A stretch of 34,929 nt of DNA, taken from NCBI GenBank assembly GCA_903919925.1, contig CAIXKO010000639.1, positions 1-34,929 of the forward strand, given 5' to 3'. The notes below the pieces were generated by a model. It did no database searches, had not been told where the DNA came from, and saw only the letters and a list, made by a program, of their open reading frames with translations. This document shows positions 3,573-30,758 of the stretch, in pieces (the stretch's first letter is position 1; each line of letters begins with the position of its first letter). Origin of the DNA: an uncultured Bacteroidota bacterium (GTDB lineage: Bacteria; Bacteroidota; Bacteroidia; Bacteroidales; UBA12481). The position numbers and the translations under genes are program-made.

Positions 3573-3629
3573 GTTTTGGGAGAATTGTACGCTAAAAATT
3601 TGCATTGCTTACCGTTAAAATCGTGTCTT

Positions 3630-4511
3630 ATGAAAAGGAACCTGATTGTTTTTCTGCTGCTGATTTATACCGTTACTGCTTTTTCTCAAATCAGTTACAT
3701 CAACCTGGCCAGTGACAGTTTAAATAAACAAAAAAGCATTGCCATTAAATATGGTAATCAAACGATTAATATAAAACCGGAATTAACCCGCTTTGATCCG
3801 ATTAGCCAGAAAAGGGAGTCTGGCTATGTTAACAGCGAGCTGCCCGGACTCCGTATAAAAGTCTTATCTGAGCTGTTTTATCACGATAATCATGCGGTAT
3901 TACAACATGTTATCGAGCTATCCGGCTTTAAGAAACTGGAAAAGGATCTGACGATTTATTTTCCGGTTAACACTCTTAATCATTTCGATAAAGTTCTGAT
4001 GCCGCTTAAAAGTGGAATCATCTATCAATCGGATAATGTAACAGATACAAAAATAGCCAGTTACCGATGCGCCGGGAAACCGGAGAAATACGCAAATGAT
4101 ATCGCCCTGCCAATGATTGTTTGCACTACCGGTAAACAGGGAACAGCGGTAATGACTGACCCGTATTTCACCTCGCTATACGATAAGGGGGTTATTCGCT
4201 GGACCTATCCAAAAGAAGTTGGGTTGGAAGACCTGGTTGAGAGGCGTACGATTATCGAAGCAGAAGGGGTTTCCGATCTGGATGAGGGGATGAGCATGTA
4301 TTATCAGACGATCCTTAAAGAGGTTCCTGCCGGCCCGGCCTGGATGAAGAATATCGCCATGATCAGTTATGATTATATGAGTGATAATGGTAAAGGCTGG
4401 TTCCGTGATATTGACACGCTGTCAACACTGATTCCTATAGCCGACCGCAGGAAAGTTGCGCTTTGCCTGCATGGCTGGTACGATATTGTTGGCAGGTATT
4501 GTTTTAAATGA
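3630..4511 (+). CDS. Truncated secreted protein next to the glycosidase; likely decayed enzyme
   Basis: The ORF is open from 3576, but the ATG at 3630 starts a clean signal peptide (MKRNLIVFLLLIYTVTAFSQ), so I prefer 3630 (293 residues). The mature part is soluble and beta-rich, then has PAWMKNIAMISYDYM and RKVALCLHGWYDIVGRY, a pattern like the start of a catalytic domain. The reading then stops at once (FK, TGA). A shifted frame stays open for about 30 more codons (EYPQSCTYDNTSYLVGKAWS) and ends in a TGA at 4597-4599 that overlaps the first copy of the repeat starting at 4598. I therefore see it as the N-terminal remnant of a larger protein, damaged by a frameshift and cut by repeat DNA. I do not recognise the family with confidence; position suggests a glycan-related role. 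Confidence 0.6.
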   Translation: MKRNLIVFLLLIYTVTAFSQISYINLASDSLNKQKSIAIKYGNQTINIKPELTRFDPISQKRESGYVNSELPGLRIKVLSELFYHDNHAVLQHVIELSGFKKLEKDLTIYFPVNTLNHFDKVLMPLKSGIIYQSDNVTDTKIASYRCAGKPEKYANDIALPMIVCTTGKQGTAVMTDPYFTSLYDKGVIRWTYPKEVGLEDLVERRTIIEAEGVSDLDEGMSMYYQTILKEVPAGPAWMKNIAMISYDYMSDNGKGWFRDIDTLSTLIPIADRRKVALCLHGWYDIVGRYCFK

Positions 4512-4597
4512 ATATCCGCAATCATGCACCTACGATAATACTTCGTACCTTGTGGGAAAAGCCTGGTCACAAACGTTGCGAGCCGGTTCCTGCTATT

Positions 4598-4667
4598 GAT
4601 CGAAGTTGTACCCACCCCTGGATCGAAGTTGTACCCACCCTTGGGATCGAAGTTGTACCCACCCCTT
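4598..4667 (+). repeat. Three tandem copies of a 23-bp unit
   Basis: The copies are 4598-4620, 4621-4643 and 4645-4667, each beginning gatcgaagttgtaccc and ending in a C-rich run. They sit at the outer edge of the left inverted-repeat arm, while the right arm has only one copy of the sequence. The first copy supplies a stop codon (4597-4599) to the shifted reading frame of the truncated upstream gene. Confidence 0.85.
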
Positions 4668-4758
4668 CCCCTCCCTAAAATAGGGAGGGGTGGAGCACCT
4701 GGCAGACTATTGTATTTAATTGTCCTTAAAGCTCTTGCCGGATTTATTTTCTGATTTT

Positions 4759-5021
4759 CTATGGGTTGTTGAGAGCAGCGAAGATCTTTTCCAAAACAGC
4801 AGGCATGTTGAAGAGCTCTTCATTTTGGATCCGCAGAACCCTTAGTCCTAAACTGTTGATGATCTGATCCCGGTTATAGTCACATAATAAAAACATTCCT
4901 GGTCGACTACCAGGTAAACGATCAGGTGCTGCCGGAGAAACCTGAATCCGAAAAGTTTCTTGCCTTTAAGGTTTTGCCAAAGTGCCATTTCAGAAAGTGT
5001 TATAAACAACATAATCACCAT
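4759..5021 (-). pseudogene. Decayed DUF559 (restriction-endonuclease-like) gene
   Basis: On the minus strand one frame reads LWQNLKGKKLFGFRFLRQHL, close to the DUF559 N-terminal pattern (LW..LR.R.L.G.KFRRQHPI..YIVDF). This frame hits a stop near 4848. A different frame continues with RDQIINSLGLRVLRIQNEEL and ends at a TAG (4759-4761), matching the usual DUF559 C-terminus (..R...L...G..VLRF.N.E). The central catalytic stretch between YIVDFYC and EIDG is missing or scrambled, so there is at least a frameshift plus an internal deletion. DUF559 proteins belong to the Vsr/restriction-endonuclease-like fold. The gene lies wholly between the 50-bp inverted repeats, which suggests it once belonged to the element. 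The start at 5021 is approximate. Confidence 0.7.
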
Positions 5022-5093
5022 ATTATCAACCAATTTGGCAAGAGCTCCACCCCTCCCTATTTTAGGGAGGGGAAGGGGTGGGTACAACTTCGA

Positions 5094-5364
5094 AATTTCT
5101 ACCGATTGGCAGCATTGGTATACGAATACGGATAATCAATTAAAACTATTCTCTTCTGCATTTGCCGGATGATTATTTGGTCCTAATGTTACTTGCACAA
5201 CGCGCGTTTTAACCACGGAATCTTCTTCAAGTGGTGACGAACAGAAAGCAATTACGCGCTTACCCATGAATTTCGTCCGTTCGTCAAACGGAATTTTGCA
5301 AAGATGATTCGTTCACCACTGGTTGACGAGTGTTCATCAAAGTAACCGGGAATACCTGCAAACG
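5094..5364. other. Intergenic stretch with no confident gene
   Basis: A plus-strand frame crossing out of the right arm reads STDWQHWYTNTDNQLKLFSS and ends in a TGA near 5172. It could be a remnant of a gene broken by the element, or chance. From 5173 to the promoter I see only loose inverted similarity (ttcaagtggtgacgaa against gattcgttcaccact) and no ORF or RNA gene. Confidence 0.4.
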
Positions 5365-5436: not shown

Positions 5437-5958
5437 ATGAAAAACTTAATTATAACAGCAGCGGTGGTAGCTTCCTTCTTCGCTTTGTCATTTGGGAGAG
5501 TTAATGCACAAGCAACAGCAACTGGTCATATTTCAGCCGAAGTTATTGAAGCTTTGACAGTTGGTGAATCCTCTTCCATGAATTTCGGCCGTTTCTCCGC
5601 TGGTGATCAGGGTGGCAGTTTAATTATCCCGGTAAAAGGTGCTGCAGTTTCAACCTCAACTGTAACTACCGCCGACAGCAACATCAACCCGGCAACTTTT
5701 TCAGTATCCGGATCAAAAAATGCCACTTTTTCGGTTACCCTTCCACAAGGACCAACTACTCTTACCAGTATCTCCGGTGAAGGCACCATGATGGTAACCG
5801 ACTGGAACGCATCTTCACTCCAGGGTACCGATGCTTACGTACTCACCGGAGGCACCCAAACCGTTTCAGTAGGAGCAACCCTGAAAGTTGGCACCGCAAA
5901 CGAAAATCCTACAGGAATCTATACCGGTTCATACCAGGTAACTTTCGCCTACAACTAG
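5437..5958 (+). CDS. DUF4402 secreted subunit 1 (candidate fibre subunit)
   Basis: 173 residues. A signal peptide with probable cleavage at Ala24/Gln25 (NAQ) is followed by one DUF4402 beta-sandwich domain: SMNFGRFSAGDQGG (about residues 47-60), a central TFSVSGSKNATFSV hairpin, TMMVTDW, and VSVGATLKVG. The C-terminus reads PTGIYTGSYQVTFAYN, with glycine at -14, alternating Y/Y/V/F and a penultimate tyrosine. That is the signature of chaperone-usher pilins, where it forms the strand bound by the chaperone. Family function is not firmly established; assembly into a surface fibre is my inference from this motif and from the nearby chaperone and usher-like genes. A candidate Shine-Dalgarno (aaaggaag) lies 7 bp before the ATG, which is rare in this phylum and may mean high expression. 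Closest relative here is the gene at 7357. Confidence 0.85.
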   Translation: MKNLIITAAVVASFFALSFGRVNAQATATGHISAEVIEALTVGESSSMNFGRFSAGDQGGSLIIPVKGAAVSTSTVTTADSNINPATFSVSGSKNATFSVTLPQGPTTLTSISGEGTMMVTDWNASSLQGTDAYVLTGGTQTVSVGATLKVGTANENPTGIYTGSYQVTFAYN

Positions 5959-5999
5959 GCATCTTAACTCCTCGGCCTTAAATTTCTGATTGATAGGTA

Positions 6000-6020
6000 A
6001 TTCCATATTGTGGAATTTTT
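6000..6020 (+). terminator. Weak candidate terminator after the first DUF4402 gene
   Basis: A 6-bp stem attcca/tggaat with a 5-nt loop is followed by a short T run, about 40 bp after the stop codon. The stem is short and AT-rich, so this is tentative. Confidence 0.3.
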
Positions 6021-6058
6021 GTGTTGTGGGAATAGATGAAGAGGGAGCCAGGCAAGAG

Positions 6059-6428
6059 CATAGCCGTCAACAATAGGAATTCCGGGATCTGAGATGTACC
6101 CACCCCGCCCTCCCTGAAAAAGGGAGGGAGTCTGCATTGGCGAATCCTTAGTACGCAACTAAGCCGGAATGCCATACAAACAGTTTTACATGCAATAGTT
6201 ATCGTGAAGAAGGTTGCTTGGTTGGCATCCTGTTAATAATCTGATCATTGAAAATGATTGCTTCTCTGTTTTGTCTGAATTTCTATTTCCCTCTCTGAAG
6301 CCGGAAGAGAAATTGTGCTTTTGTTTGGTTGCGCTGAGAGGTAGCAACAAAGCAGACTCCCTCCCTGTTTCAGGGAGGGTCGGGGTGGGTACAACTGAGA
6401 TCCCGGAGCCCTCAGGTTGACGGCTATG
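6059..6428. mobile_element. Repeat element related to the DUF559 element but without an endonuclease gene
   Basis: Nested inverted arms bound this 370-bp block. Outermost are catagccgtcaac (6059-6071) and gttgacggctatg (6416-6428), then ccgggatct and its complement, then about 50 bp that pair imperfectly and hold gtacccaccccg and agggagggagtctgc. Each side contains a GC-rich hairpin: ccctccct/agggaggg at 6108-6128 and ccctccctg/cagggaggg at 6359-6379. The same gtaccc and ccctccct modules occur in the element at 4598-5093. The 6137-6350 interior has no recognisable gene. It resembles a non-autonomous (MITE-like) derivative; a degenerate extra end, ttaagttgagggcttt, lies just outside at 6484. 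Confidence 0.6.
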
Positions 6429-6537
6429 AGGGTAGGTCCCGAGGTTGATCGCGCAAAAGGCATCCTGGCAGAGTAAAAAATCTTTAAGTTGAGGGCTTTA
6501 CCTACCCCTCCAAACAACCTATAAATTCCACTTTCCG

Positions 6538-6582
6538 TTCCAAATTTTGCCCCAAATTTCCATAATGTGGAACGATTTGGAA
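6538..6582 (+). promoter_or_regulatory. Nested hairpins upstream of the second DUF4402 gene
   Basis: An outer stem ttccaaat (6538-6545) / atttggaa (6575-6582) encloses an inner stem ttcca/tggaa (6558-6572). It lies 124 bp before the start codon at 6706 and could be a terminator or leader structure. No clear -7 element was found between it and the gene. Confidence 0.3.
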
Positions 6583-6705
6583 TTGTGCCAAACTCCTAAA
6601 AGTCACAATATGAGCAAATTAACGTCTATATGCCAAAGTGGTATACTTCTTGACTGTAATCCATCAGAAACGAATTAAAAAAACAAATAATTAAAATTTT
6701 AAGTC

Positions 6706-7230
6706 ATGAAAACTTCAATTAAACTCTTCGCCCTCGGAATCGTAATCGCCGGATTCGGTATTAATGCAAACGCTCAGCAGTCTGTAACAGGAACCGGAGC
6801 AACCAATGCTACCATTATTACTCCTCTTACAATTGTAAAAGCAACAGATGCTGACATGAATTTCGGAGTTGTTGCTGTTAGTGCAACCACAGCAGGAACG
6901 GTTATTCTCACACCTGCAAGCGCACGCTCAGTTACTGGTGGAGTTACTCTGCCTTCAGTTACCGGAACAGTTGGTGCTGCAGTATTTAATGTAGCAGGTG
7001 ATGGCAATAGAGTATTTACAATTTCTTTGCCTTCCTCTATTACATTAACTGGATCTGTATCTGGGACTATGACTGTCAACACATTCACTAGCACTCCTTC
7101 AGGAACAGGTACACTTTCGACCGGAACAGCCACTGTAAGAGTAGGTGCAACTTTAGTTGTTGGTGCAGCTCAGGCTCCAGGAGAATACACTAATGCTGCC
7201 GACTTAGCTGTAACGATTAATTATAACTAA
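6706..7230 (+). CDS. DUF4402 secreted subunit 2 (candidate fibre subunit)
   Basis: 174 residues with a signal peptide likely cut at Ala23/Gln24 (NANAQ). The mature chain is Thr/Ser/Ala/Gly-rich and has the DUF4402 pattern: DMNFGVVAV, a VFNVAGDGNRVFTISLP hairpin, GTMTVNTF, VRVGATLVVG, then APGEYTNAADLAVTINYN. The end has a penultimate tyrosine with alternating L/V/I/Y, as in chaperone-usher pilins, but the preceding glycine sits at -16 rather than -14. It has no cysteine. It diverges from subunits 1 and 3 and could be the major subunit, a guess based on its strong terminator and simple composition. The leader is AT-rich (aaaaaacaaataattaaaa) without a Shine-Dalgarno, typical of Bacteroidota. 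Confidence 0.85.
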   Translation: MKTSIKLFALGIVIAGFGINANAQQSVTGTGATNATIITPLTIVKATDADMNFGVVAVSATTAGTVILTPASARSVTGGVTLPSVTGTVGAAVFNVAGDGNRVFTISLPSSITLTGSVSGTMTVNTFTSTPSGTGTLSTGTATVRVGATLVVGAAQAPGEYTNAADLAVTINYN

Positions 7231-7248
7231 TTATCCCTCGGGAACATG

Positions 7249-7276
7249 AAAAGTGCTGCTTTAAGGCAGCGCTTTT
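7249..7276 (+). terminator. Rho-independent terminator after DUF4402 subunit 2
   Basis: The stem aaaagtgctgc (7249-7259) / gcagcgctttt (7266-7276) has one G-T pair, a short loop and a following T-rich stretch, 19 bp past the stop codon. It could limit read-through so that subunit 2 is made in excess over downstream genes. Confidence 0.7.
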
Positions 7277-7356
7277 CGTGTTTATAATTGTTTGTAATTC
7301 TTTAAGGTTTTTTATCTCAGCCCATTTTAGTTTTATTAAGAATTGTTGATCAAAAA

Positions 7357-7881
7357 ATGAAAAAGCTTTTCCTGATATTTGTTTCTATCTCTTTTCTTCT
7401 GGGAGTTCAATGCCAACGGGCGTTATCTCAGGAAAGAGTAAGTGCTTATGCTCAGGTATCAGCATCAGTCATTATTCCGATAGCCGCTACGGAAACATCC
7501 CAGTTGAATTTTGGACGTTTTTACCCGGGCACTTCGGGTGGAACTATTTCCATCAGTCCTGATGGTTATGTTATGACTTCCTCTACAGTTGTGGCAGATG
7601 CCAGTCCGAGGAGTCCGGGAAGTTTTTTGGTTTCTGGTCAGGGGGATGCAACTTATGCGATAGATTTTCAGGAAGGTTCAGCCACACTTATAAATTCTGA
7701 ATCCAAAACAATGGAGGTGAGTGACTGGGTTACCATACCTGAAACCAGTGATAGTTGTATGAAACTTGCTGGAGGTAGCCAAACGGTTATGGTAGGGGCA
7801 ACTCTTAAAGTTGGCTCGTTGGACGAAAATCCCAAGGGAATATATACTGGTTCTTACCAAATCACGTTCGCTTATAATTAG
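7357..7881 (+). CDS. DUF4402 secreted subunit 3 (candidate fibre subunit)
   Basis: 174 residues with a signal peptide probably cut after Ser24 (ALSQ). The DUF4402 landmarks are QLNFGRFYPGTSGG, SFLVSGQGDATYAI, TMEVSDW, VMVGATLKVG, and the terminal PKGIYTGSYQITFAYN with glycine at -14 and penultimate tyrosine. It is clearly a paralogue of the protein at 5437; the last 30 residues differ at only a few positions. It lies after the terminator of subunit 2, so it needs its own promoter. TTTG at 7291-7294 followed 18 bp later by TATCTCAG (7313-7320) is a weak candidate. The chaperone gene follows 129 bp downstream. Being next to the chaperone, it may be a minor or adaptor subunit (inference). Confidence 0.83.
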   Translation: MKKLFLIFVSISFLLGVQCQRALSQERVSAYAQVSASVIIPIAATETSQLNFGRFYPGTSGGTISISPDGYVMTSSTVVADASPRSPGSFLVSGQGDATYAIDFQEGSATLINSESKTMEVSDWVTIPETSDSCMKLAGGSQTVMVGATLKVGSLDENPKGIYTGSYQITFAYN

Positions 7882-7941
7882 GTTTTTCAAAAGGTTTTTT
7901 TTAAAGAATTGTACTGTACATGCACACTGTTATAATATTTT

Positions 7942-7949
7942 TATATTTG
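7942..7949 (+). promoter_or_regulatory. -7 promoter element before the chaperone gene
   Basis: TATATTTG is a perfect TAnnTTTG match. No convincing -33 element is present at the right distance. It lies upstream of the ATG at 8011 with a leader of about 55 nt and overlaps the alternative ATG at 7951, which supports 8011 as the start. Confidence 0.45.
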
Positions 7950-8010
7950 TGTGTGTTTTTTTAAACTGTACAACATGTTTACATCGAAAGCCTTTTGGTC
8001 AGAAAAAGTT

Positions 8011-8856
8011 ATGAAACAAATCGTAACATCTGTTCTTTTGTTTTTTGGGTTGATTCTTTTGCCTGTAATAGCCTCATCAGGTGTCATGGCACAAGGAAAC
8101 CTACTGATCACTCCGCGACGCGTTGTATTTGAAGGGAATAAGAAAACCGAGGAGCTTAATCTTGCTAATACTGGTGCAGATTCGGCAACTTACAATGTTT
8201 CTTTCGTTCAGTACCGGATGAAGGAAGATGGCTCATTTGAAGAGATCAAAGTACCGGACCCTGGCCAGAATTTTGCAGACAAAAATATTCGATTTTTTCC
8301 GAGAACGGTTACTCTGGCACCCAATGAGTCACAGGTTGTGAAAATGCAGGTGTTCCGAACCACTGAACTACCTGCTGGCGAATATCGTTCTCACGTTTAT
8401 TTCAGGGCTTTACCCAAGCAAACTGCTCTTGGGGAAGCTGATGCGCCCAAAGACTCCTCCGCATTATCTGTAAAATTGGTTCCAATATTTGGAATAACCA
8501 TCCCTGTGATTATTCGGACAGGTACTACATCCGCAGAAGTTACTCTTTCAGATCTGTCTTTTCAAGTTCTTAATGATACACTGCCCAGGCTGAATCTGAC
8601 TTTCAACCGGACCGGCAACAAATCGGTTTATGGTGATATTGATGTTAGTCATGTGTCAGTAGCAGGTAAGATAACTCAGGTTGGCTCCATACGTGGGATT
8701 GCAGTTTATACTCCGAACCTGATCCGGCGGGTAAAAATGGATCTTTTGCGGATTCCGGGTGTAGATTTCAAAATCGGAAAGCTTCAAGTGACTTATTCTG
8801 GCGAAGTTGAAGCCAAACAGGTAAAGTATGCAGATACCGAGTTGCTACTCAAGTAG
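8011..8856 (+). CDS. PapD-like periplasmic chaperone
   Basis: 281 residues from the ATG at 8011; the longer start at 7951 would put 20 odd residues before a clean signal peptide (cleavage near Ala27/Gln28, VMAQ). The N-terminal Ig domain (about 29-150) reads like FimC/PapD chaperones: LLITPRRVVFEG with Arg36/Arg37 where PapD has Arg8, RFFPRTVTLAPNESQVVKMQV with Lys111 near PapD Lys112, and PAGEYRSHVYF. The Arg/Lys pair anchors the subunit C-terminus in the known family. The G1 region, LSVKLVPIFGITIPVII, has alternating hydrophobic residues suitable for donor-strand complementation. A second beta domain follows to residue 281. Expected role: fold and cap the DUF4402 subunits in the periplasm before hand-over to the usher-like protein. 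Residue equivalences were made by eye. Confidence 0.82.
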   Translation: MKQIVTSVLLFFGLILLPVIASSGVMAQGNLLITPRRVVFEGNKKTEELNLANTGADSATYNVSFVQYRMKEDGSFEEIKVPDPGQNFADKNIRFFPRTVTLAPNESQVVKMQVFRTTELPAGEYRSHVYFRALPKQTALGEADAPKDSSALSVKLVPIFGITIPVIIRTGTTSAEVTLSDLSFQVLNDTLPRLNLTFNRTGNKSVYGDIDVSHVSVAGKITQVGSIRGIAVYTPNLIRRVKMDLLRIPGVDFKIGKLQVTYSGEVEAKQVKYADTELLLK

Positions 8857-27400: not shown

Positions 27401-30250
27401 CAACAAGTTACTTTAACCGGGACCGGGGCTTATACAGGTGGTACATACACAGTTTCGCCAGTTGGTTTGACTATCAATGCCTTAACGGGCGATATTTTAC
27501 CAGCCAGCAGTACGGCTGGAGCGTATACCGTTACCTATACGGTTCCTGCATCAGGCGGTTGCGATCCCGTAGGGGTAACCCTTGTGGTTACCCTAACTGC
27601 CTTACCCGTTGGAACTTTCACCTACACAAATTCTCCTTATTGCGCTAACTCTGTCAATCCACTTCCCACATTCTCCGGTGGTGGGGTTGCCGGGGTTTTC
27701 TCATCAACCTCGGGTCTTATTTTTGTCAGCAATACAACTGGAGAAGTAAATCTATCGGCTAGCACACCAGGTACGTATATGGTCACCAATACTATTGCTG
27801 CTGCAGGTGGATGCGCCCAGGTTACAGAAACTGCCAGCATCACCATCACTGAATTACCAACTGCCGTGATCAGTTACCCTGACGAAGCATACTGTAAATC
27901 TGTCGTTACCGCTCAATCAATCAGTCTAAGCGGTACTGCGGCATACACAGGTGGTGTTTTTTCAGCAGCTCCGGCAGGGTTATCCATTAATGCGGTTACC
28001 GGTGCAATAACTCCGGGTTCAAGCAGTGCAGGTACCTACACGGTTTCTTACGCTATACCTTCAGCAGGCGGGTGTACCCCTGAGGCGGTAACCACCTCAG
28101 TTACCATAACGGCGATACCTTATGCGGAGATTTTTTACACCGGATCGCCATTCTGCTGGTGGCTTACCGATCCGCAAATTGTTACTTTCACAGGCACCAG
28201 CGGTGGTACCTATACTGCCTCGCCAGCAGGATTATCCATCAATCCAACTTCAGGAGCTATAATACCAAACGCCAGTACTACCGGAACTTATACGGTTACC
28301 TACACGGTTGCACCGGCCGGTGGTTGTGATTTATTCTCTACCACTACATCAGTAACCATTATTGACGATTTGGTATGGACCGGAAATATGAGCACCGATT
28401 GGAATGTTCCGGCCAACTGGTCGTGCCTGGTGGTACCCGATATAAATACCAACGTAAGGATACCGCTTTTGGCTAATCAACCGGTTTTAAGTAATGGAAC
28501 AGGTTTTATTCCGGTTACGGGAGCTGCAAAAAATATTGTGCTCGAAAATGGATCCTCCTTAACGGTAACTGGAAATACTATTCAAATTGGTGGGACCATC
28601 AGCAACAGCGGAACTTTTACTGCCACAGAGGGAACGGTGGAAATGAAAGGAAACTCAGCTCAAATCATTGGTGCAGATGTTTTTGCTACCAACACGATTA
28701 TGAATCTCACAATCAATAATTCCAATAGTGTTGTATTGGAGGGAACACTCAATATCACCGGGATTTTAAATGCAGCCATTGGAAATCTGGCGGCGGGTGA
28801 CTTTTTAACTTTGATTTCTACGGCTACACAAACAGCTTTGATCGATGGAACCGGAACGGGCGAAGTTCTTGGAAATGTTACCATGCAGCGATACCTTCCA
28901 TCCACTTTTGGGTACAAATATTTCAGTTCCCCATTCAGGGCCGCTACTGTTAATGAATTTGGCGATGATATGAATTTAAGTGCAGTGTTTCCAACTTTTT
29001 ACCGGTATAATGAAAACCATTTTACTCCGGCGGGAGTCGAGATGTCGGGTTGGACTACCTACACTGATCCGGGCGGGTTACTGAACCCGTTAGAGGGATA
29101 CGCTGTGAACTTTGGACCTCTTTCCACACCGAAAACTGCCGACATAACGGGTACGGTCACCAATGGGCAGGTTCAGGTTGAACTTTTGAACCATAAACGA
29201 CTTTACACCAAGGGATTTAATTTGGTTGGAAACCCATATCCTTCACCGATCGATTGGAACAACGAAGGCTGGACCAAGAATAACATTGACAACGCACTTT
29301 ATTTTTTCAATGCCAGTAACCCCACCGGAGATCCGTTGGCAAATGATTCCATACAATATCAGGGTGTTTACAGCAGTTATGTTAATGGAGCAGCAACAGG
29401 AAACGGATCCAATATCATTGCTTCGATGCAAGGATTTTTCGTACATGTAACAGAAGGTCCGGGCACGGTTACCGGAACACTGGGAACGACCAATCCGGTT
29501 AGAACCAACGATTTAAATCCGCAATTCAAGAAAACTTATATTGATCACCGGGAGATCCTTAGGTTTACTGCAAATTTTGAAACGACCAATGCAATGGAGG
29601 ACATGGCGGTGGTTTACTTTGACCGCAACGCCAAGCCTGCATTTGATTCTGACATGGATGCATTGAAATTAACGAATACTGACCCAATGGTTCCCAACCT
29701 GTATTCGTTTTCACTCGAATCCAGGCAGCTTTCGATTAATGGATTACCCATACTTACCGATAGTATAACCGAGATACCGCTAGGATTAAATTTACTCAAC
29801 ACCGGGTGGGTTACCTTTAAAGCAAAAGACATTTCACAGTTACCTTTTAACCTGCACCTCTATCTTTTGGATGGCGATCTGGGAATTATCCAGGATTTGC
29901 AACGCAACCCCGAGTATCGTTTTAATTTGAAAAACGGAGAATACAATGAACGGTTTTCATTGGTTTTTTCACTATCCGAAATAACAGATCCTGCAGCAGT
30001 TACTGAAAACCTCTTTAAGGTATTACGCTCTGGTAATCTGTTAATCGCCAGGGTAACACTTCCTTACAGCACACGAGGCACACTTATGGTAACCAACATG
30101 GCAGGCCAGGTAGTACTTCGCAAGGAGGTTTTAGGCTCCGAAATGGTTGAAATAAATCCAAATTCGTCAGCAGGAATTTATATTGTAACTTTGGTCTCTG
30201 GTAAGAGAGCCCAATCAGAGAAACTTTTAATGCGATTAGATTATGAATAG
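9488..30250 (+). CDS. Giant multidomain surface adhesin (6920 aa) with T9SS C-terminal sorting domain
   Basis: One uninterrupted 20.8-kb ORF. A hydrophobic signal (FLLFLFLSTCLFLSANSSFGQ) lies at about residues 44-65 after an unusually long leader; an ATG at 9581 (Met32) would give a normal signal peptide. Order of parts: N-terminal beta domain (about 66-300); a WNSTSTWQES/G8-like segment (to about 500); Ig-like domains; A/B array (891-2348); ten C repeats (2349-3327); Calx-beta domain (about 3426-3540, ending TATITDDD); choice-of-anchor-L-type domain (about 3546-3850, YVFASEEYAEYVGAASNDAF); PKD and SprB-like repeats; a jelly-roll-like segment; thirteen D repeats (5101-6290); then typical T9SS-cargo C-terminal regions. 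The last about 80 residues (LMVTNMAGQVVLRKEV, GIYIVTLVSG, SEKLLM) form a type A T9SS sorting domain. Expected role: cell-surface adhesion or gliding, after export by T9SS. It overlaps the next gene by 8 nt. Confidence 0.92.
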   Translation: MFYISKYEYYPAQGSAETVGASACSIGNGCGMGSRVRYFSRSGKFLLFLFLSTCLFLSANSSFGQISTLNGWTNLYHGTSTAAQNFTYTVPAGSNSRRILVIAIASSRTDVGARSVTLTYGGQTLIPVNGDMALATQRHHTQLYYLNEAGLDAATNSTLAVTVSGASTRATDVFASVYDNIDQNNPVTDSRTYTSGTSNTTNPLFSPALTVNASDLAVEVISCFRVNSTSLRNITYAANWSMVNQQTTASTDAVRNAVAYRSVPVTNTTDASSTTFSGNALGSMTAMSLKEAPRYFLSAASGNWNSTSTWQESYDNATWQPATEVPTNISLLTTIQSGHTVTLTAAAAATDLTIEGVLDVSTFTLTGSGNLNVSSTGDLLIGGASNFPAGFPSTTLSSGSTVNYDNAGSQNVATFAYSNLILSISGAKSISTGTSVAGNLSISGATASVGAGLNIAVGSLTLGGINRINGTWGSTTATSATYHDNTYFSATTGYLTVSTDTRTSPDLVVSTASQSICSGFSSITLSGTVSAGGPLYPTNGETVAVTINGITQNASISGGAGGFSINYTTSAIPANGTPYTITYAYAGNTILAAASNTGTTLTVNSTIGNNFPDFAYGAHGTICGTAIENGNATLTAPSGTVFINVGFSSYGTPGGSCLSYTLSSCNSLTSQSVTEGYLLGNNTATIPATNAVFGDPCVGTQKRLYVQATYTEPVCAGVAPGTITGSLPSGGNGVYTYLWESSTTSSSTGFSAAAGTNDLQDYTPGVLSQSTWYRRTVYSGGCANSISPVILIKITPVIAGNAVSSAQTICTGSSPAALSGTIPTGGSGTFVYLWESSTTSAATGFSAATGTNNTQNYSPAALTQTTWYRRTVTSGGCSSTSTAIQVTVNVASVGGTVASAQTICSGTSPADLTLSGNTGSVVRWEKSTNAAFTALTIIAGTTTTLSSATIGSLTANTYFRAVVQGGTCAEANSASALITVKPTPTATISGTATVCQNAASPNITFTNPQTLPVTVTYNINGANQTTINVGASTTANLAGLTTTTGTFVYNLVSVVYQSAPTCSNSITGSATVTVAATVGTPVFASGATSTRCQGAGTLTYTATAANSTSVTYALDATSIAGGNSIVAGTGVVTYAAGWSGTSVITASAAGCNGPTTASHTVTVTPTVGTPSFTLGATSSRCKGAGTVTYTATATNNTGLTYSLDATSVTGGNSIAAGTGVVTYAAGWSGTSTITVSAAGCGGPKTATHAVTISPTSVGGTLASAQTICSGTSPSDLTLSGNTGSVVRWEKATDVAFASPTTIAGTTTTLSSATIGTLSANTYFRAVVQSGTCAEAGSSTVLITVRPTPTATISGTTTVCQNATSPNITFTNPQTLPVTVTYNINGANQTTINVGAGTTATLAAPTTTAGTFVYNLVSVVYQTAPTCSSSITGSATVTVTATVGTPVFTLGSTSSRCKGAGTVTYTATAANNTSLTYSLDATSVTGGNSIVAGTGVVTYAAGWSGTSTITVSAAGCGGPVTASHTVTINPTSVGGAIASAQTICSGSSPADLILSGNTGSVVRWEKSTDAAFPTPTTISGTTTTLSGATIGSLSANTYFRAIVKSGTCAEAGSATVLITVRPTPTATISGTTAVCQNATSPNITFTNPQTLPVTVTYNINGANQTTINVGASTAATLAAPTTTAGTFVYNLLSVVYQTAPTCSSSITGSATVSVSATVGTPVFASGATSTRCQGAGSVTYAATASGSTGITYSLDATSIAGGNSIVAGTGVVTYVAGWSGTSIITVSAAGCNGPTTSTHTVTITPTVGTPVFTLGSTSTRCQGAGTVTYTATANNSTSLNYSLDASSTAGGNSIAFSTGVITYVAGWSGTSIITVSAAGCNGPKTATHTVTITPTVGTPVFSSGATSTRCQGAGTVTYTATATNNSGLMYSLDATSTTGGNSIVSGTGAVTFVAGWSGTSIITVSAAGCSGPKTATHTVTINPASVGGTLASAQSICAATSPADLTLTGNTGSVLHWQKSSDLSFTTPTDIPGTTTTLLGATIGSLAANTYFRAVVQSGVCPEAYSSTVLITVKPAPTATISGTTTVCQNTTSPNITFTNPQTLPVTVTYNINGANQTTINVGASTSATLAIPTTTAGTYIYNLVSVAYQTAPACSNTITGSATITVSATVGTPTVITISAGSEPTCQPTNGTTTTTYATTASSSTGFNWTLSNGSAGSIGATTGVMTWALGFSGSVNIQVTANGCNGPSSQVVRTVTINPTVGSPSTPTPSATTICQGSSNTTYTTTATNATSYSWTVSGTGNTISGTGTTGTVTWSPAFSGTATVSVTANGCNGPSAAASTTVTVSATSVSPTLGSSSPVAGSVICSGYNSGSATFTGGSGSGANEYQYSIDGGLNWATYTNSATITTTGGVTSVQVRARRSGGVCAAAAYNTFTIWTYGVAPVSPTLNSASPIGGTTICAGFNTGIVTGTGGSGGSTGATNEYQVSINGGSTYGAYTSGAAVITTGATGSIIVQARRNGGSYGCSSTAWTTINTWNLSSATVNPSLNVATPANGTSFCAGFSPSATITAGSGGSTGSVDTYQYSIDNGSNWLVYVSGTAIATAGATGNVLIRASRSAGSYGCSATGPATIVTWPVSQTPVAPTLGSAVPADGSVICPAFNTGTVTGSAGSGGSGTAADEYQVSIDGGTTFSSYTSGASITTTGATGSVIVQARRTGGSVCANTSWSTICTWVVSSPTIIPALDVATPASGTAICAGFSVSATITAGSGGSAGAADLYEYSINNGVAWLAYTSGASINTATATGNVLIRVSRSAGSYGCSSTGPSIIATWPVSSATVNPVLLAATPANGISICPGYSVSATITPGSGGSAGAADYYDYSIDNGASWFVYVSGSAINTTTATGNVLIRTSRSAGSSGCSATGPAVIVNWPVSSATVSPTLGSANPANGSVICTGFNTGSVNGTGGTGGSTGAANEYQVSINGGGAFSAYTSGAAINTAGASGSVIVQARRTGGSYGCTSTSWATICAWTIGTTPLAPSLGSASPGNGSSICAGFNTGTVTGTGGSGGSSGAANEYQVSIGGAYTAYVSGTAINTFGATGNVIVQARRTGGSYGCSSTAWVTICTWSVSSATVNPILNVATPASGSTICEGYSTSATITAGSGGSIGAADTYEYSINSGVTWFTYTSGSSINTTGATGNVMIRASRSGGSYGCSGSGPATIATWPVASAAVAPTLGSASPASGSTICAGSNTGTVTATGGSGGSSGSANEYQFSINNGASYNSYVNGAAISTTGATGSVIVQARRTGGSYGCSSTSWTTLCTWTVNPQPTITLGSNPVLNRGTTIANLLYSATTSSPNQYSIDYNATANTAGFIDVANAALTASPIVLVVPAAPALATYNAILTVRNSTTGCVSINYPITVTVGQNILTASLLNSSQKSVKETGTMVVTVQLSAVSASQVTVPFTINGGSTATGGGTDYAVTASPLTIAAGSTTAGIVITITSEALDENDETVIVNLGTPTNAILGPIITHTATITDDDPYPTGSIAVNRAGISTDATSLVNGVLLKGCVTASNVVFRGNAAQIGHFLKGSSAFPLSEGVLLSTGNVANAEGPNKDFGTTTQYAGAGDANINTITGGTSYDAAVLEFDFVPAGNILQFNYVFASEEYAEYVGAASNDAFAFLLSGPGITGTVNIALIPSTSTPVSINTVHGQGNTLGTTFPAELLNLMPYPTNFGQPWTRVTDDAIGAFGTAPSRYYYRITPTNNNTYPPLNASYYVDNGQFYDRNLFATSGRKQLEYVNGNGVSDMEFDGRTTVLTASHSVTACQTYHIKMVVADVSDQKWDSGVFLEAKSFSSNEILISSHIGAIIGEADNMFEGCDGSFIRFQRTTGADNSQPFTFPILISGTAVNGVDYVYTDQAENIIGDGKFPATGTVAAGSNYVDYYYKALSDGLIEGNETIIFKVNNSCLCSPTPSYLEKMVTIVDVPQIQTSSVSVIKCSTSGYPVATITVNLDGGLDPTEYLYSLDGGTFQASNQFTIPSAVADGSDIFGTSHTVTVKDFYSCNSVTENNIIIPDISPFAAEAGSNIEMCAGQTGVQLNASGGIYYSWTSDTGLVYLSNPSIANPAVRSDIPVGTYIFTVTAQDQEGLAPTCSGTDNMTLTVKPRPALTVTSNSYSVCNGMPIQLTATETNGVAISSWFWNPETNLSSPTISNPVYTPVVSSYLAQSFSVTATATNGCTVSGYSAVVEAFPAPVITTGAIVNAGCGLSNGSATVSATSPGTLPPPTFTYLWNTSPAKTTASATGLAAGTYTVTVTDATHGCSSSKSVTVGTLADVTPPTTGCKIPFTVYLDGTGNAAITVSQINNPAVTADNCTATGNLVMSLSKSTFNASNLGANTVTLSVMDASGNVGTCTTVVTVAYPTTCIITGSRTIYKESFDAGSVNGGYSISAGSAYNINSSAMRVTKNTTVDNFFISRFINVLSYTHLNISVSTPATQTGLNSSDYIQFWYSVDGGANYVQFANNGRMTGTTTGTACSNIPNAESVRIKILSYQNGNSEWRDFDDVHLTGDPALQIAATLTHVTCYGQSNGQIVASATGGASSSYQYKLNAVPYTAYQVSGTFTGLSAGTYIITSKDANNVENTKEVIITQPANPANSAGLAVSDASVCNPSAGNVVFTITNALSGVNYELKTLADVSLSPAVTGTGSGTNLALTILQANLPTSTTTYKVVASTASGCQTTDLTDRPTLNITPKPAGSASQSFCSTNSHKISDLSVTGTGIIWYNASTGGSVLAPATNLVNGLTYYASQTIGGCESATRLAVTASVTLPPTILSVTHGAICGSGTVTLQATASAGVINWYSGQTGGASIGTGTSFTTPNISSTTSYWVESTNNGCATSPRSQVIANVYALPTISLGANPAVCIGAGSAGLTYSATTGGANQYSINFDATAEAAGFIDLAFRTLPVSPIAVVVPGTATVGTYKATLMVKNSLNSCASTPDSITFTINPTTAITSQSMGAQETCIGQSFSPISVSAVGVGLTYQWYSDVSGSTSGGTSLGSANGAQTATYTPQATQAGTLFYYCTVIGTCGSAISSISGAFVVNAIPTATISYLGSPFCKSVSVPQSVSLSGTGAYSGGIYSSTTGLTINPSNGEIAPATSIAGVYTVTYTIPASGGCSEETATTSVTITQVPVATFNYSPEPYCSNASNPLPVFTGGGTAGTFSSATGLIFVSTSTGEVNLSASTPGTYTVINTIAPSGGCDEVSATATITITALPTAAISYIGTPFCKSSEPVSVTLNGTAGGVYSSTAGLTIDSGTGAITPASSTGGTYTVTYTIAAAAGCQSVTATTSVIITAIPVGGFSYTGTPYCINGTNPSPTFVQGGVAGTFSSTAGLVFVSNLTGQVNLSASTPGSYTVTNTIAGNGGCGVVTATSSITISAIPAATISYSGAPFCKNILIPQQVTRTGTAGGTYSALPAGLTIDLNTGAIVPSTSTAGTYTVTYTMLAGGCAPVLSTTSVTINSELTAGISGGTTPVCYNSSPGTLTATGSGGTGSYTYLWYKDGITTGVTTQTYSPGNLIQTSVFYCAITSGSCGTVNTPTSTITVTEVPTGTISYAGSPFCIDLSAEQPVTLSGTGAYTGGTYSSSAGLSINTVTGAITPNLSTAGSYTVTYIIPASGGCSNVPVTTSVTITLVPSVTLTYAGSPFCMSDNSSQPVTLTNGIGAYTGGTYSSTEGLSINAATGEIIPGSSIAGTYTVSYSIPESGGCGGVVVTTSVTITAVPTVAISYSGAPFCKSQVTPQAVTLSGTGAYEGGTYTASPSGLSINSGSGDITPVTSTPGSYTVTYTTPASGGCSAVVATLEVAITPIPTATISYSGTPFCKSVNTPQAATLSGTGAYEGGTYTAMPAGLSINSSTGDITPGTSEPGTYTVTYTIPASGGCSSVTTTSTVIITAVPTASIVYGGSPFCNTLVTPQQVTLTGTGAYTGGTYTVSPVGLTINALTGDILPASSTAGAYTVTYTVPASGGCDPVGVTLVVTLTALPVGTFTYTNSPYCANSVNPLPTFSGGGVAGVFSSTSGLIFVSNTTGEVNLSASTPGTYMVTNTIAAAGGCAQVTETASITITELPTAVISYPDEAYCKSVVTAQSISLSGTAAYTGGVFSAAPAGLSINAVTGAITPGSSSAGTYTVSYAIPSAGGCTPEAVTTSVTITAIPYAEIFYTGSPFCWWLTDPQIVTFTGTSGGTYTASPAGLSINPTSGAIIPNASTTGTYTVTYTVAPAGGCDLFSTTTSVTIIDDLVWTGNMSTDWNVPANWSCLVVPDINTNVRIPLLANQPVLSNGTGFIPVTGAAKNIVLENGSSLTVTGNTIQIGGTISNSGTFTATEGTVEMKGNSAQIIGADVFATNTIMNLTINNSNSVVLEGTLNITGILNAAIGNLAAGDFLTLISTATQTALIDGTGTGEVLGNVTMQRYLPSTFGYKYFSSPFRAATVNEFGDDMNLSAVFPTFYRYNENHFTPAGVEMSGWTTYTDPGGLLNPLEGYAVNFGPLSTPKTADITGTVTNGQVQVELLNHKRLYTKGFNLVGNPYPSPIDWNNEGWTKNNIDNALYFFNASNPTGDPLANDSIQYQGVYSSYVNGAATGNGSNIIASMQGFFVHVTEGPGTVTGTLGTTNPVRTNDLNPQFKKTYIDHREILRFTANFETTNAMEDMAVVYFDRNAKPAFDSDMDALKLTNTDPMVPNLYSFSLESRQLSINGLPILTDSITEIPLGLNLLNTGWVTFKAKDISQLPFNLHLYLLDGDLGIIQDLQRNPEYRFNLKNGEYNERFSLVFSLSEITDPAAVTENLFKVLRSGNLLIARVTLPYSTRGTLMVTNMAGQVVLRKEVLGSEMVEINPNSSAGIYIVTLVSGKRAQSEKLLMRLDYE
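12161..16531 (+). repeat. A/B module array inside the giant adhesin
   Basis: Module A (558 bp, 186 aa, begins SVGGTxASAQTICSG) starts at 12161, 13253, 14078 and 15437. Module B (267 bp, 89 aa, begins VGTPxFxxGxTSxRC) follows A two, one and three times respectively; the fourth A is followed by two diverged B-like modules to about 16531. The start-to-start spacings (1092, 825 and 1359 bp) equal 558 plus 2, 1 and 3 times 267 exactly. The copies are very similar in sequence, which points to recent duplication or ongoing recombination. Confidence 0.9.
16534..19468 (+). repeat. Ten tandem C repeats of about 97 aa in the giant adhesin
   Basis: Approximate starts are 16534, 16818, 17108, 17407, 17698, 17995, 18289, 18589, 18876 and 19171. 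Two subtypes are seen. One has PTLGSASP, NEYQVSINGG and VIVQARRTGGSYGC; the other has NVATPA or similar, SATITAGSGGS, YEYSINNG and NVLIRASRSAGSYGC. Each repeat carries a cysteine early (TICAGF) and one late (YGCS), a likely intradomain disulphide. Confidence 0.85.
24791..28368 (+). repeat. Thirteen D repeats of about 85 aa in the giant adhesin
   Basis: The consensus begins PTATISYxGSPFCKS, has GAYxGGTYSS and GLSINxxTGxITP in the middle, and ends GTYTVTYTIPASGGC followed by a TTSVTIT strand. One unrelated Ig-like domain (TAGISGGTTPVCYN) interrupts the array near 26050. Two conserved cysteines per repeat suggest a disulphide. A minority type (PxGxFxYTxxPYCxN) appears at about 25050, 25547 and 27605. 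Confidence 0.85.
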
Positions 30251-30758
30251 ATCTAAACATCCATTCTTGTTTAGGATGCTTTATTTGTCATTCCTGGTAA
30301 TGTTATTTGCTTTTGTCTTCGATGTATCGGTTCAGGCCCAGCAAAAGCCACCCAAACCGATTACCGTTACCGTAGCCAAAATGTATAATCTGGATTTTGG
30401 ATCTTTTTGTGCAGGTAACGGGATAGGGACCAATGTGATCGTAGATGCTTACGGCAATCGCACAAAAACGGGTAATATCATTCTTTTGGGTAGTTTTTCT
30501 TCCGCTGCGCTTTTCATTATTACTGCAATCCCCGGAACGTTTATCAGTATTTTAGACTTGGGTGATACCATCTTAACAGGTCCGGGTGGAGCAACTCTGA
30601 CTTTACGGATGGGAGATTCCTATCCTCCTTCTCCTTTTATTGCAACCGGAGATTACACCCCTGTTTCGATCGGTGGCCGGCTGATGGTTCCTTCAGCTCA
30701 AGCAACGCCGGGAGGTGTTTATAATGGTGATTTGAATGTGATTTTTATTCAGGAATAA
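30243..30758 (+). CDS. DUF4402 secreted subunit 4 (candidate specialised subunit)
   Basis: 171 residues. The ATG overlaps the last codons of the giant gene by 8 nt, implying translational coupling. The signal peptide is likely cut at Ala32/Gln33 (VQAQ). DUF4402 landmarks: NLDFGSFCAG, ALFIITAIPGTFISI, TLTLRMGD, VSIGGRLMV, then GGVYNGDLNVIFIQE. Glycine is kept at -14 and hydrophobics alternate, but the end is IFIQE: the penultimate tyrosine of the other three subunits is absent. In the mature chain it also has a Cys in NLDFGSFC. Its placement between giant adhesin and usher-like gene, away from the other subunits, suggests a distinct job such as tip, base or link to the giant (inference). The next gene starts 39 bp downstream. 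Confidence 0.8.
   Translation: MNRSKHPFLFRMLYLSFLVMLFAFVFDVSVQAQQKPPKPITVTVAKMYNLDFGSFCAGNGIGTNVIVDAYGNRTKTGNIILLGSFSSAALFIITAIPGTFISILDLGDTILTGPGGATLTLRMGDSYPPSPFIATGDYTPVSIGGRLMVPSAQATPGGVYNGDLNVIFIQE

Follow-up and report, generated by a model that had tools for sequence, protein, structure and literature searches.

A decayed DUF559 nuclease gene between inverted hairpin arms, and a proposed DUF559-palindrome element

RESULTS

The window contains a dead DUF559 gene between perfect inverted arms

The window, by which we mean the whole 34,929-nt stretch of DNA that was analyzed, contains a decayed gene for a DUF559 protein enclosed by inverted hairpin arms (element 1). Its features are as follows.

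4598..4667, plus strand: three tandem units of about 23 nt, GATCGAAGTTGTACCCACCCC, the third of which coincides with the outer portion of the left arm
4647..4704, plus strand: left arm of element 1, perfect over 4647-4696, with long or full-length copies elsewhere in the genome
4668..4690, no strand: hairpin CCCCTCCCTAAAATAGGGAGGGG in the left arm, 10-bp stem
4765..4905, minus strand: DUF559 remnant, profile positions 74-112 (profile hit L040, converted to window coordinates)
4872..5018, minus strand: DUF559 remnant, profile positions 18-53, in another frame (PF04480 and our own profile)
5036..5093, minus strand: right arm of element 1, perfect over 5044-5093
5050..5072, no strand: hairpin CCCCTCCCTATTTTAGGGAGGGG in the right arm, 10-bp stem, from the palindrome search

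Comparing the window sequence with itself, we found that 4647-4696 is the exact reverse complement of 5044-5093 over 50 nt and that the pair extends to 4647-4704 and 5036-5093 at 95% identity over 58 nt. These are the sole exact inverted 25-mers no more than 1.5 kb apart in the entire window. Both arms contain a CCCCTCCCT-loop-AGGGAGGGG hairpin, and the window has four such palindromes versus 0.00 expected from 100 shuffles. The tandem repetition of the outer end of the arm is also present in congeners.

On the minus strand, the interior gives a PF04480 match above the curated cutoff (E 2.3e-5; 26.7 bits versus 20.6). To read the remnant, we used a DUF559 profile built in this analysis beside PF04480. 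It resolved two pieces in different frames, with model positions 54-73 missing between them; the frameshift and the deletion are therefore real. Profile residues D59, E70, and D72 are invariant in 10 aligned relatives and are expected within the missing stretch. Thus, the acidic residues of the catalytic core are absent from the window remnant and intact in the relatives. The sequence-only reading of this DNA had described perfect 50-bp inverted arms, a hairpin in each, and a DUF559 gene dead by frameshift and deletion, and all of this is borne out. The ORF adjoining the element (3576-4508) had no match in 11 relatives, an uninformative result, and no empty site could therefore be located for the window copy. 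We think that element 1 is probably a dead member of the kind of DUF559-palindrome element proposed below, a judgment made jointly with the whole as the best explanation.

A larger outer repeat encloses element 1 and has spread in the genome

Element 1 lies entirely within a repeat of about 630 bp (4509-5138) that has ends of its own, TGAATATCCG.../...CGGATAATCA.

4509..5138, no strand: outer MITE-like repeat containing element 1, with 10 strong left-part copies in its own genome
4509-4523 (TGAATATCCGCAATC) and 5124-5138 (GAATACGGATAATCA), no strand: terminal inverted repeats of the outer repeat, 15-nt ends

With terminal inverted repeats, several dispersed copies, and no transposase gene, it is MITE-like in structure. 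Its copies have A+T-rich flanks without a clear target site duplication in those that were read. In the genome to which the window belongs (G000; 7.0 Mb in 916 contigs), the 60-nt arm has 47 matches; 10 span 47 to 60 nt, and the rest are shorter. Thus, the arm is not unique to this site; uniqueness had been named in advance as an outcome that would refute a link between DUF559 and the repeats. On contig C406, we found an interior with the same deletion and frame change as the window copy (contig C639); the two interiors align without gaps, and their surroundings differ. Contig C628 has a further shortened copy of the dead interior. Because the C406 and window copies share the deletion and the frame change in different surroundings, the gene died before the copies spread. 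A PF04480 search found two remnants and no live DUF559 gene in this genome. The sequence-only reading took the perfect arms to suggest recent movement, gene conversion, or selection on the arms. As a correction to it, the recent spread of the dead copy in this genome is better explained by the larger outer repeat, which is the likely vehicle of the dead copies.

Two arm copies, at 75-100 of L009 (contig C406) and about 1530-1560 of L012 (contig C653), are broken inside the hairpin, and both are joined to TAATGGTGCTAACTTAAA, which looks like an insertion sequence inserting into the palindrome.

A second decayed element and gene-less dimers in the same genome

A second inverted pair with CCCTCCCT hairpins, at about 6059-6428, had been overlooked in the sequence-only reading, as had the tandem units at 4598-4667 and the outer repeat.

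6059..6139, plus strand: left arm of element 2 (GATGTACCCACCCCG-CCCTCCCTGAAAAAGGGAGGG-AGTCTGC), 80% identity over 85 nt to the left arm of L037
6061: outer inverted sequence TAGCCGTCAAC of the element 2 left arm
6199..6287, no strand: interior piece of element 2, 74% identity to L037 1582-1669, inside the DUF559 gene at 1486-1848
6348..6428, minus strand: right arm of element 2, with a hairpin at 6359-6379 and outer inverted sequence GTTGACGGCTA at 6416-6426

The arms of element 2 are 80 to 88% identical to those of intact DUF559 elements in two relatives (L037 in G005 and L043 in G006), and 89 nt of its interior align within the DUF559 genes of these elements at 72 to 74% identity; a reversed-query control gave no match for this piece. 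The DUF559 profile scan of the region found nothing above noise. Judged by DNA alignment to L037 and L043, in which alone the remnant is visible, element 2 is a second decayed DUF559 element.

The genome also contains dispersed gene-less dimers of about 110 nt with GTACCCACC...GGTGGGTAC ends. Both hairpins are present in 12 of 16 loci read, a count in which L023 and L024 are one place. It has many hairpin dimers and only remnants of DUF559, which counts against a DUF559 element.

Two other features of the window were seen. At the contig end (34400-34929), inverted sequence of the TAGCCGT(C/T)AAC type, as at the outer ends of element 2 (6061, 6416), surrounds direct and inverted GGACGCATATTTGCGTCC repeats, which are another repeat family. 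Four DUF4402 proteins (5437-8856 and 30243-30758) lie near a 6,920-aa ORF (9488-30250) whose domains are of the lectin, PKD, Calx-beta, and Ig-like types; a 1,202-aa SPOR/SdrD_B protein comes next. This is a giant surface protein locus.

DUF559 genes are flanked by inverted arms in relatives and in other phyla

PF04480 matched in 10 of 21 relatives, the window's own genome included. In seven loci of the same genus or family (L031, L032, L033, L036, L037, L043, and L046), intact genes are bracketed by mirror-image C-rich hairpins, and most intact congener genes have such arms when read by eye; L038 has a palindrome of this type on one side only. The congener arms end in motifs such as GATCCACCTCACCCC or GTTGTACCCACCCC. 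One end motif was found in 4 of the 21 genomes (4 to 19 copies) and the other in 6 (1 to 27 copies); neither occurred in reversed-pattern controls or in 13 genomes outside the genus. One genome (G007) has seven copies of one motif and no DUF559, which is evidence against a DUF559 element. Short, Vsr-like PF04480 matches (L039, L044, and L047) have no arms; the score limit excluded them from the counts that follow.

We scored arms as the best local alignment between the 400 nt upstream of each gene (450-nt flanks for the plasmid collection) and the reverse complement of the same length downstream. Controls were windows offset from the same loci, by 1,400 nt for Bacteroidota. Among Bacteroidota DUF559 loci, inverted C-rich arms scored at least 15 in 65/104 (controls, 5/152) and at least 20 in 34/104 (controls, 0/152). 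This sample comprised hits above 60 bits, without 13 loci refetched with longer flanks and without 5 of 109 dropped for short flanks (L041, L046, L063, L083, and L137). The genome-collection scan of other phyla gave 31/82 versus 2/291 in controls. It had 85 domain hits in 80 loci; three were dropped for short flanks (L271, L274, and L284), L265 is counted three times, and L235, L248, and L257 are counted twice. The two sets overlap: the query's own locus (L074) recurs as L208, and L092 apparently recurs as L217. Among named plasmid-collection records, 9/16 (6/10 and 3/6) had arms versus 1/32 controls. Thus, the second outcome that was to refute the link, DUF559 genes not being enriched near arm copies, did not materialize in any of the three sets; enrichment was strong, and the link holds as an association.

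Clear armed cases came from Desulfobacterota (L233 and L261), Chloroflexota (L251), Nitrospirota (L262), Zixibacteria (L276), Acinetobacter (L260 and L263), and Seleniivibrio (L272). The armed plasmid records are those of Pseudanabaena, Sinorhizobium, two Deinococcus, Azospirillum lipoferum, two Sphingomonas, Qipengyuania, and Novosphingobium. The same anatomy, in which inverted palindromes flank the gene as in a REPtron, recurs in several phyla. Evidence against a DUF559 element comes from the loci without arms at score 15, namely, 39/104 in Bacteroidota and 51/82 in the genome collection. No arm pair reached this score at the N. gonorrhoeae (L361) and E. coli (L362) DUF559 loci.

In a Sphingomonas parapaucimobilis plasmid (L363, 1992-2402), an armed DUF559 gene separates sufB from sufC in an iron-sulfur cluster operon. 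In a Photobacterium plasmid (L356), CCTCCCCCTTGAAAAGGGGGAGG palindromes do not bracket the DUF559 match but follow it, with at least three copies at regular intervals of about 149 nt on its downstream side. Matches to the Sinorhizobium DUF559 arm occur in 171 plasmid-collection records, mostly from Rhizobiaceae.

CCTCTCC hairpins are found at DUF559 loci more often than at RAYT loci

Palindromes of the REP type are widespread in bacterial genomes; to our knowledge, a partner enzyme is known only for those associated with RAYTs. We counted CCTCTCC-loop-GGAGAGG hairpins across 296 genomes. Among genomes with at least 10 of them, 19/22 have DUF559 (E <1e-15) versus 125/296 overall (odds ratio, 10). 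This test is uncorrected for ancestry, and the counts include hairpins flanking DUF559 itself. Against a DUF559 element, G021, G106, and G145 are hairpin rich without DUF559, and neither of the two DUF559 loci tested in G123 (20 hairpins) has arms of the CCTCTCC type.

In G281, we found gene-less dimers of about 85 to 90 nt, GCCTCACC...CCTCTCC-loop-GGAGAGG...GGTGAGGC, whose arms match those of the DUF559 embedded in icmF in the same genome. Dispersed gene-less dimers, the second mark of a REPtron, are present in G281, G069, and the window's own genome. The third mark, a Y1 HUH transposase gene between the palindromes, was not found; the enclosed gene is DUF559. The REP/RAYT parallel drawn in the sequence-only reading thus holds in anatomy, with a gene within inverted palindromes, gene-less dimers, and separate RAYTs coexisting.

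These data bear on the possibility that a RAYT or another transposase moves the palindromes and that DUF559 is chance cargo inside them. Y1_Tnp genes are indeed present in 20/23 genomes searched (22 of the 23 being hairpin rich), and the hairpin-rich genomes without DUF559 fit this explanation as well. We found, in contrast, that RAYT loci carry palindromes of another sequence in 21/29 cases (score of at least 15). CCTCTCC hairpins are found no farther than 600 bp from only 2/29 RAYT loci, both in G314, versus 10/19 DUF559 loci of the same genomes. (L339 was too short, leaving 29 of 30 RAYT loci; the Fisher test of RAYT versus DUF559 was entered as 2/30.) Furthermore, G222 has CCTCTCC hairpins and armed DUF559 without Y1_Tnp, G021 and G145 are hairpin rich with neither gene, and cargo status alone would not hold one small gene family in arms across phyla. 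The DUF559 elements are thus separate from RAYTs, and we regard movement by a transposase as unlikely. RAYTs in particular, considered as the mover of the DUF559 arms, are not favored, since those of the same genomes carry other palindromes.

DUF559 units are inserted in frame in host genes

Among long open frames around DUF559, 35/38 contain a recognized host protein (frames scanned); a few of the 35, methyltransferase-like, rest on matches below the curated cutoff. The hosts are LeuRS (two sites), MetH, RecG, IcmF, RecB-like helicases, HsdR, HsdM, and other methyltransferases, and end fusions were found with PurQ, HutG, RNase HI, and one other protein. Most units lie outside genes, with 65/104 Bacteroidota units in open frames of <250 aa. 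The arms are translated as linkers beside the DUF559 domain, giving peptides such as PSPSPxEKG, LSLGEGQGE, or LTPALSKGEGGE, often on both sides; in RecG, they are barely recognizable. The host proteins remain open and of full length, which means that the insert is either tolerated or excised once the protein has been made.

Empty sites occur within the same genus. In genus g25, the leuS insert is present in G069 and absent from G206 (90% identity, matched N-terminal part), and the former has 14 CCTCTCC hairpins and the latter none. The recG insert is present in 4/17 genomes searched and absent from 13, and the distribution within genus g19 is patchy.

The DUF559 gene is under purifying selection and has a Vsr-like fold

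We found that dN/dS between DUF559 pairs was 0.05 to 0.34 (8 of 12 pairs were computable), with values of 0.067 for the LeuRS-embedded and 0.116 for the RecG-embedded domain. The gene is therefore under purifying selection. Vsr is a mismatch repair nicking enzyme, and the predicted DUF559 structure (pLDDT, 91.8) matches Vsr (Z 10.2), NGO0050 (Z 15.6), and I-Bth0305I (Z 11.5), in agreement with the earlier assignment to Vsr-like nucleases. I-Bth0305I also matches DUF559 in sequence (E 4e-8), and the model has the catalytic-domain fold of EDxHD enzymes. A TnsA match (Z 7.2) is in the uninformative range, and the absence of other folds from the VIA match list is no evidence. PADLOC gave weak matches to restriction and defense models only (best, 2.8e-8, to DpdF), which does not support a defense role.

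DUF559 might instead be a host maintenance or defense nuclease that keeps hairpin-prone repeats in check by trimming or policing them, with the arms as regulatory or target sites and the pair immobile. Purifying selection, the Vsr fold, the weak PADLOC matches, and the fusions within hsdR, hsdM, and methyltransferases are all in line with this. We nonetheless consider it improbable, since in-frame inserts that include the arms, in unrelated metabolic genes with same-genus empty sites, have the look of a mobile unit, as do the dispersed gene-less dimers.

In a tree of 108 DUF559 domains, nearly all housekeeping-embedded units fall in one clade of 23 (support, 0.92) that spans leuS, metH, recG, icmF, and recB hosts; restriction gene hosts fall elsewhere. 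This suggests a lineage moving from one housekeeping gene site to another. A homing-type selfish gene that cuts empty alleles (e.g., of leuS or recG) and is copied by repair, with the arms as scars or linkers, is very doubtful: the nearest solved structures include the homing endonuclease I-Bth0305I, the inserts in recG, metH, and icmF cluster by host site in each case (weakly for metH, 0.09, and icmF, 0.51), and the distribution in g19 is patchy, but the leuS-site inserts do not form one clade, most units lie outside genes, and the arms also exist as gene-less dimers.

DISCUSSION

A proposed DUF559-palindrome element

With moderate confidence, we propose that the loci described here belong to a DUF559-palindrome element, a gene for a small Vsr/EDxHD-like nuclease within inverted C-rich hairpin arms, with gene-less dimers as its nonautonomous offspring. 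That the nuclease moves the repeats is inferred and has not been demonstrated. DUF559 would recognize the hairpin arms, as a single strand or a cruciform, an inference made without enzyme data, and might nick or break DNA at the arm or at the target. A PD-(D/E)XK nuclease is unable to join strands; therefore, the model needs host repair, which would bridge the break by copying the element into it and would leave no target duplication. An insertion preserving the frame in a protein loop would survive within an essential gene. In the window's own genome, by further inference, no live gene would be left, and the relic would have multiplied as cargo of the outer MITE-like repeat. Repair-based copying is consistent with the tandem outer-end units and with the absence of a clear target duplication but is not proved by them. 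Against the model, we observed no movement of DUF559 elements and detected neither a target duplication nor an excision product.

Whether these elements amount to an unrecognized class of mobile element in several phyla, in which a nuclease replaces the transposase and seeds REP-like dimers and some lineages insert in frame in essential genes, is to us evenly balanced. Tying a large palindrome set to another enzyme family provides a testable partner candidate. If the nuclease moves the palindromes, mobility would be achieved here with neither a transposase nor a strand-joining enzyme. Housekeeping enzymes of several Bacteroidota contain an inserted nuclease domain; this has consequences for annotation and raises the question of how it is tolerated; if our reading is true, leucyl-tRNA synthetase, methionine synthase, or RecG carries a nuclease domain flanked by hairpin-derived peptides.

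Comparison with known systems

Rhizobial palindromic mosaic repeats (RIME) are, we presume, a possible comparison for the Sinorhizobium DUF559 arm; no published sequence was compared. We did not find the pairing of DUF559 with palindromes in the open literature searched, including the accessible part of PMC12907096; subscription journals and preprints were mostly not covered. In Legionella, repeated segments containing a transposase together with a DUF559 nuclease are recombination hot spots, according to the part of PMC12308824 that was available.

As far as the available part of PMC3733652 (Di Nocera 2013) goes, the DUF559 element resembles REP/RAYT systems (REPtrons and REPINs) in having a nuclease-type gene within inverted palindromes, dispersed gene-less dimers, occurrence in several phyla, and no obvious target duplication; intragenic REPs are also reported there, and the CGTC REP superfamily as a whole is apparently without a RAYT. 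The DUF559 element differs in that its enzyme is a Vsr/EDxHD-like nuclease and not a Y1 HUH transposase, its arms are C rich, unlike RAYT arms in the same genomes, and complete gene-carrying units lie in frame within essential genes.

DUF559 has a fold in common with Vsr (PDB 1cw0 and 1vsr) and NGO0050 (3hrl) and shares the catalytic-domain fold of I-Bth0305I (PDB 3r3p). Unlike I-Bth0305I, DUF559 is about 115 to 150 aa, without the extra DNA-binding region described for the EDxHD enzyme in the available part of PMC3943268, and it is bracketed by palindromic arms, with no intron or intein location as far as seen. Rickettsia palindromic elements are likewise palindromic inserts in frame in unrelated genes; at about 150 bp, they are too short for a nuclease gene (both points from the accessible part of PMC10969869). 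The DUF559 insert, in contrast, is a whole nuclease domain under selection.
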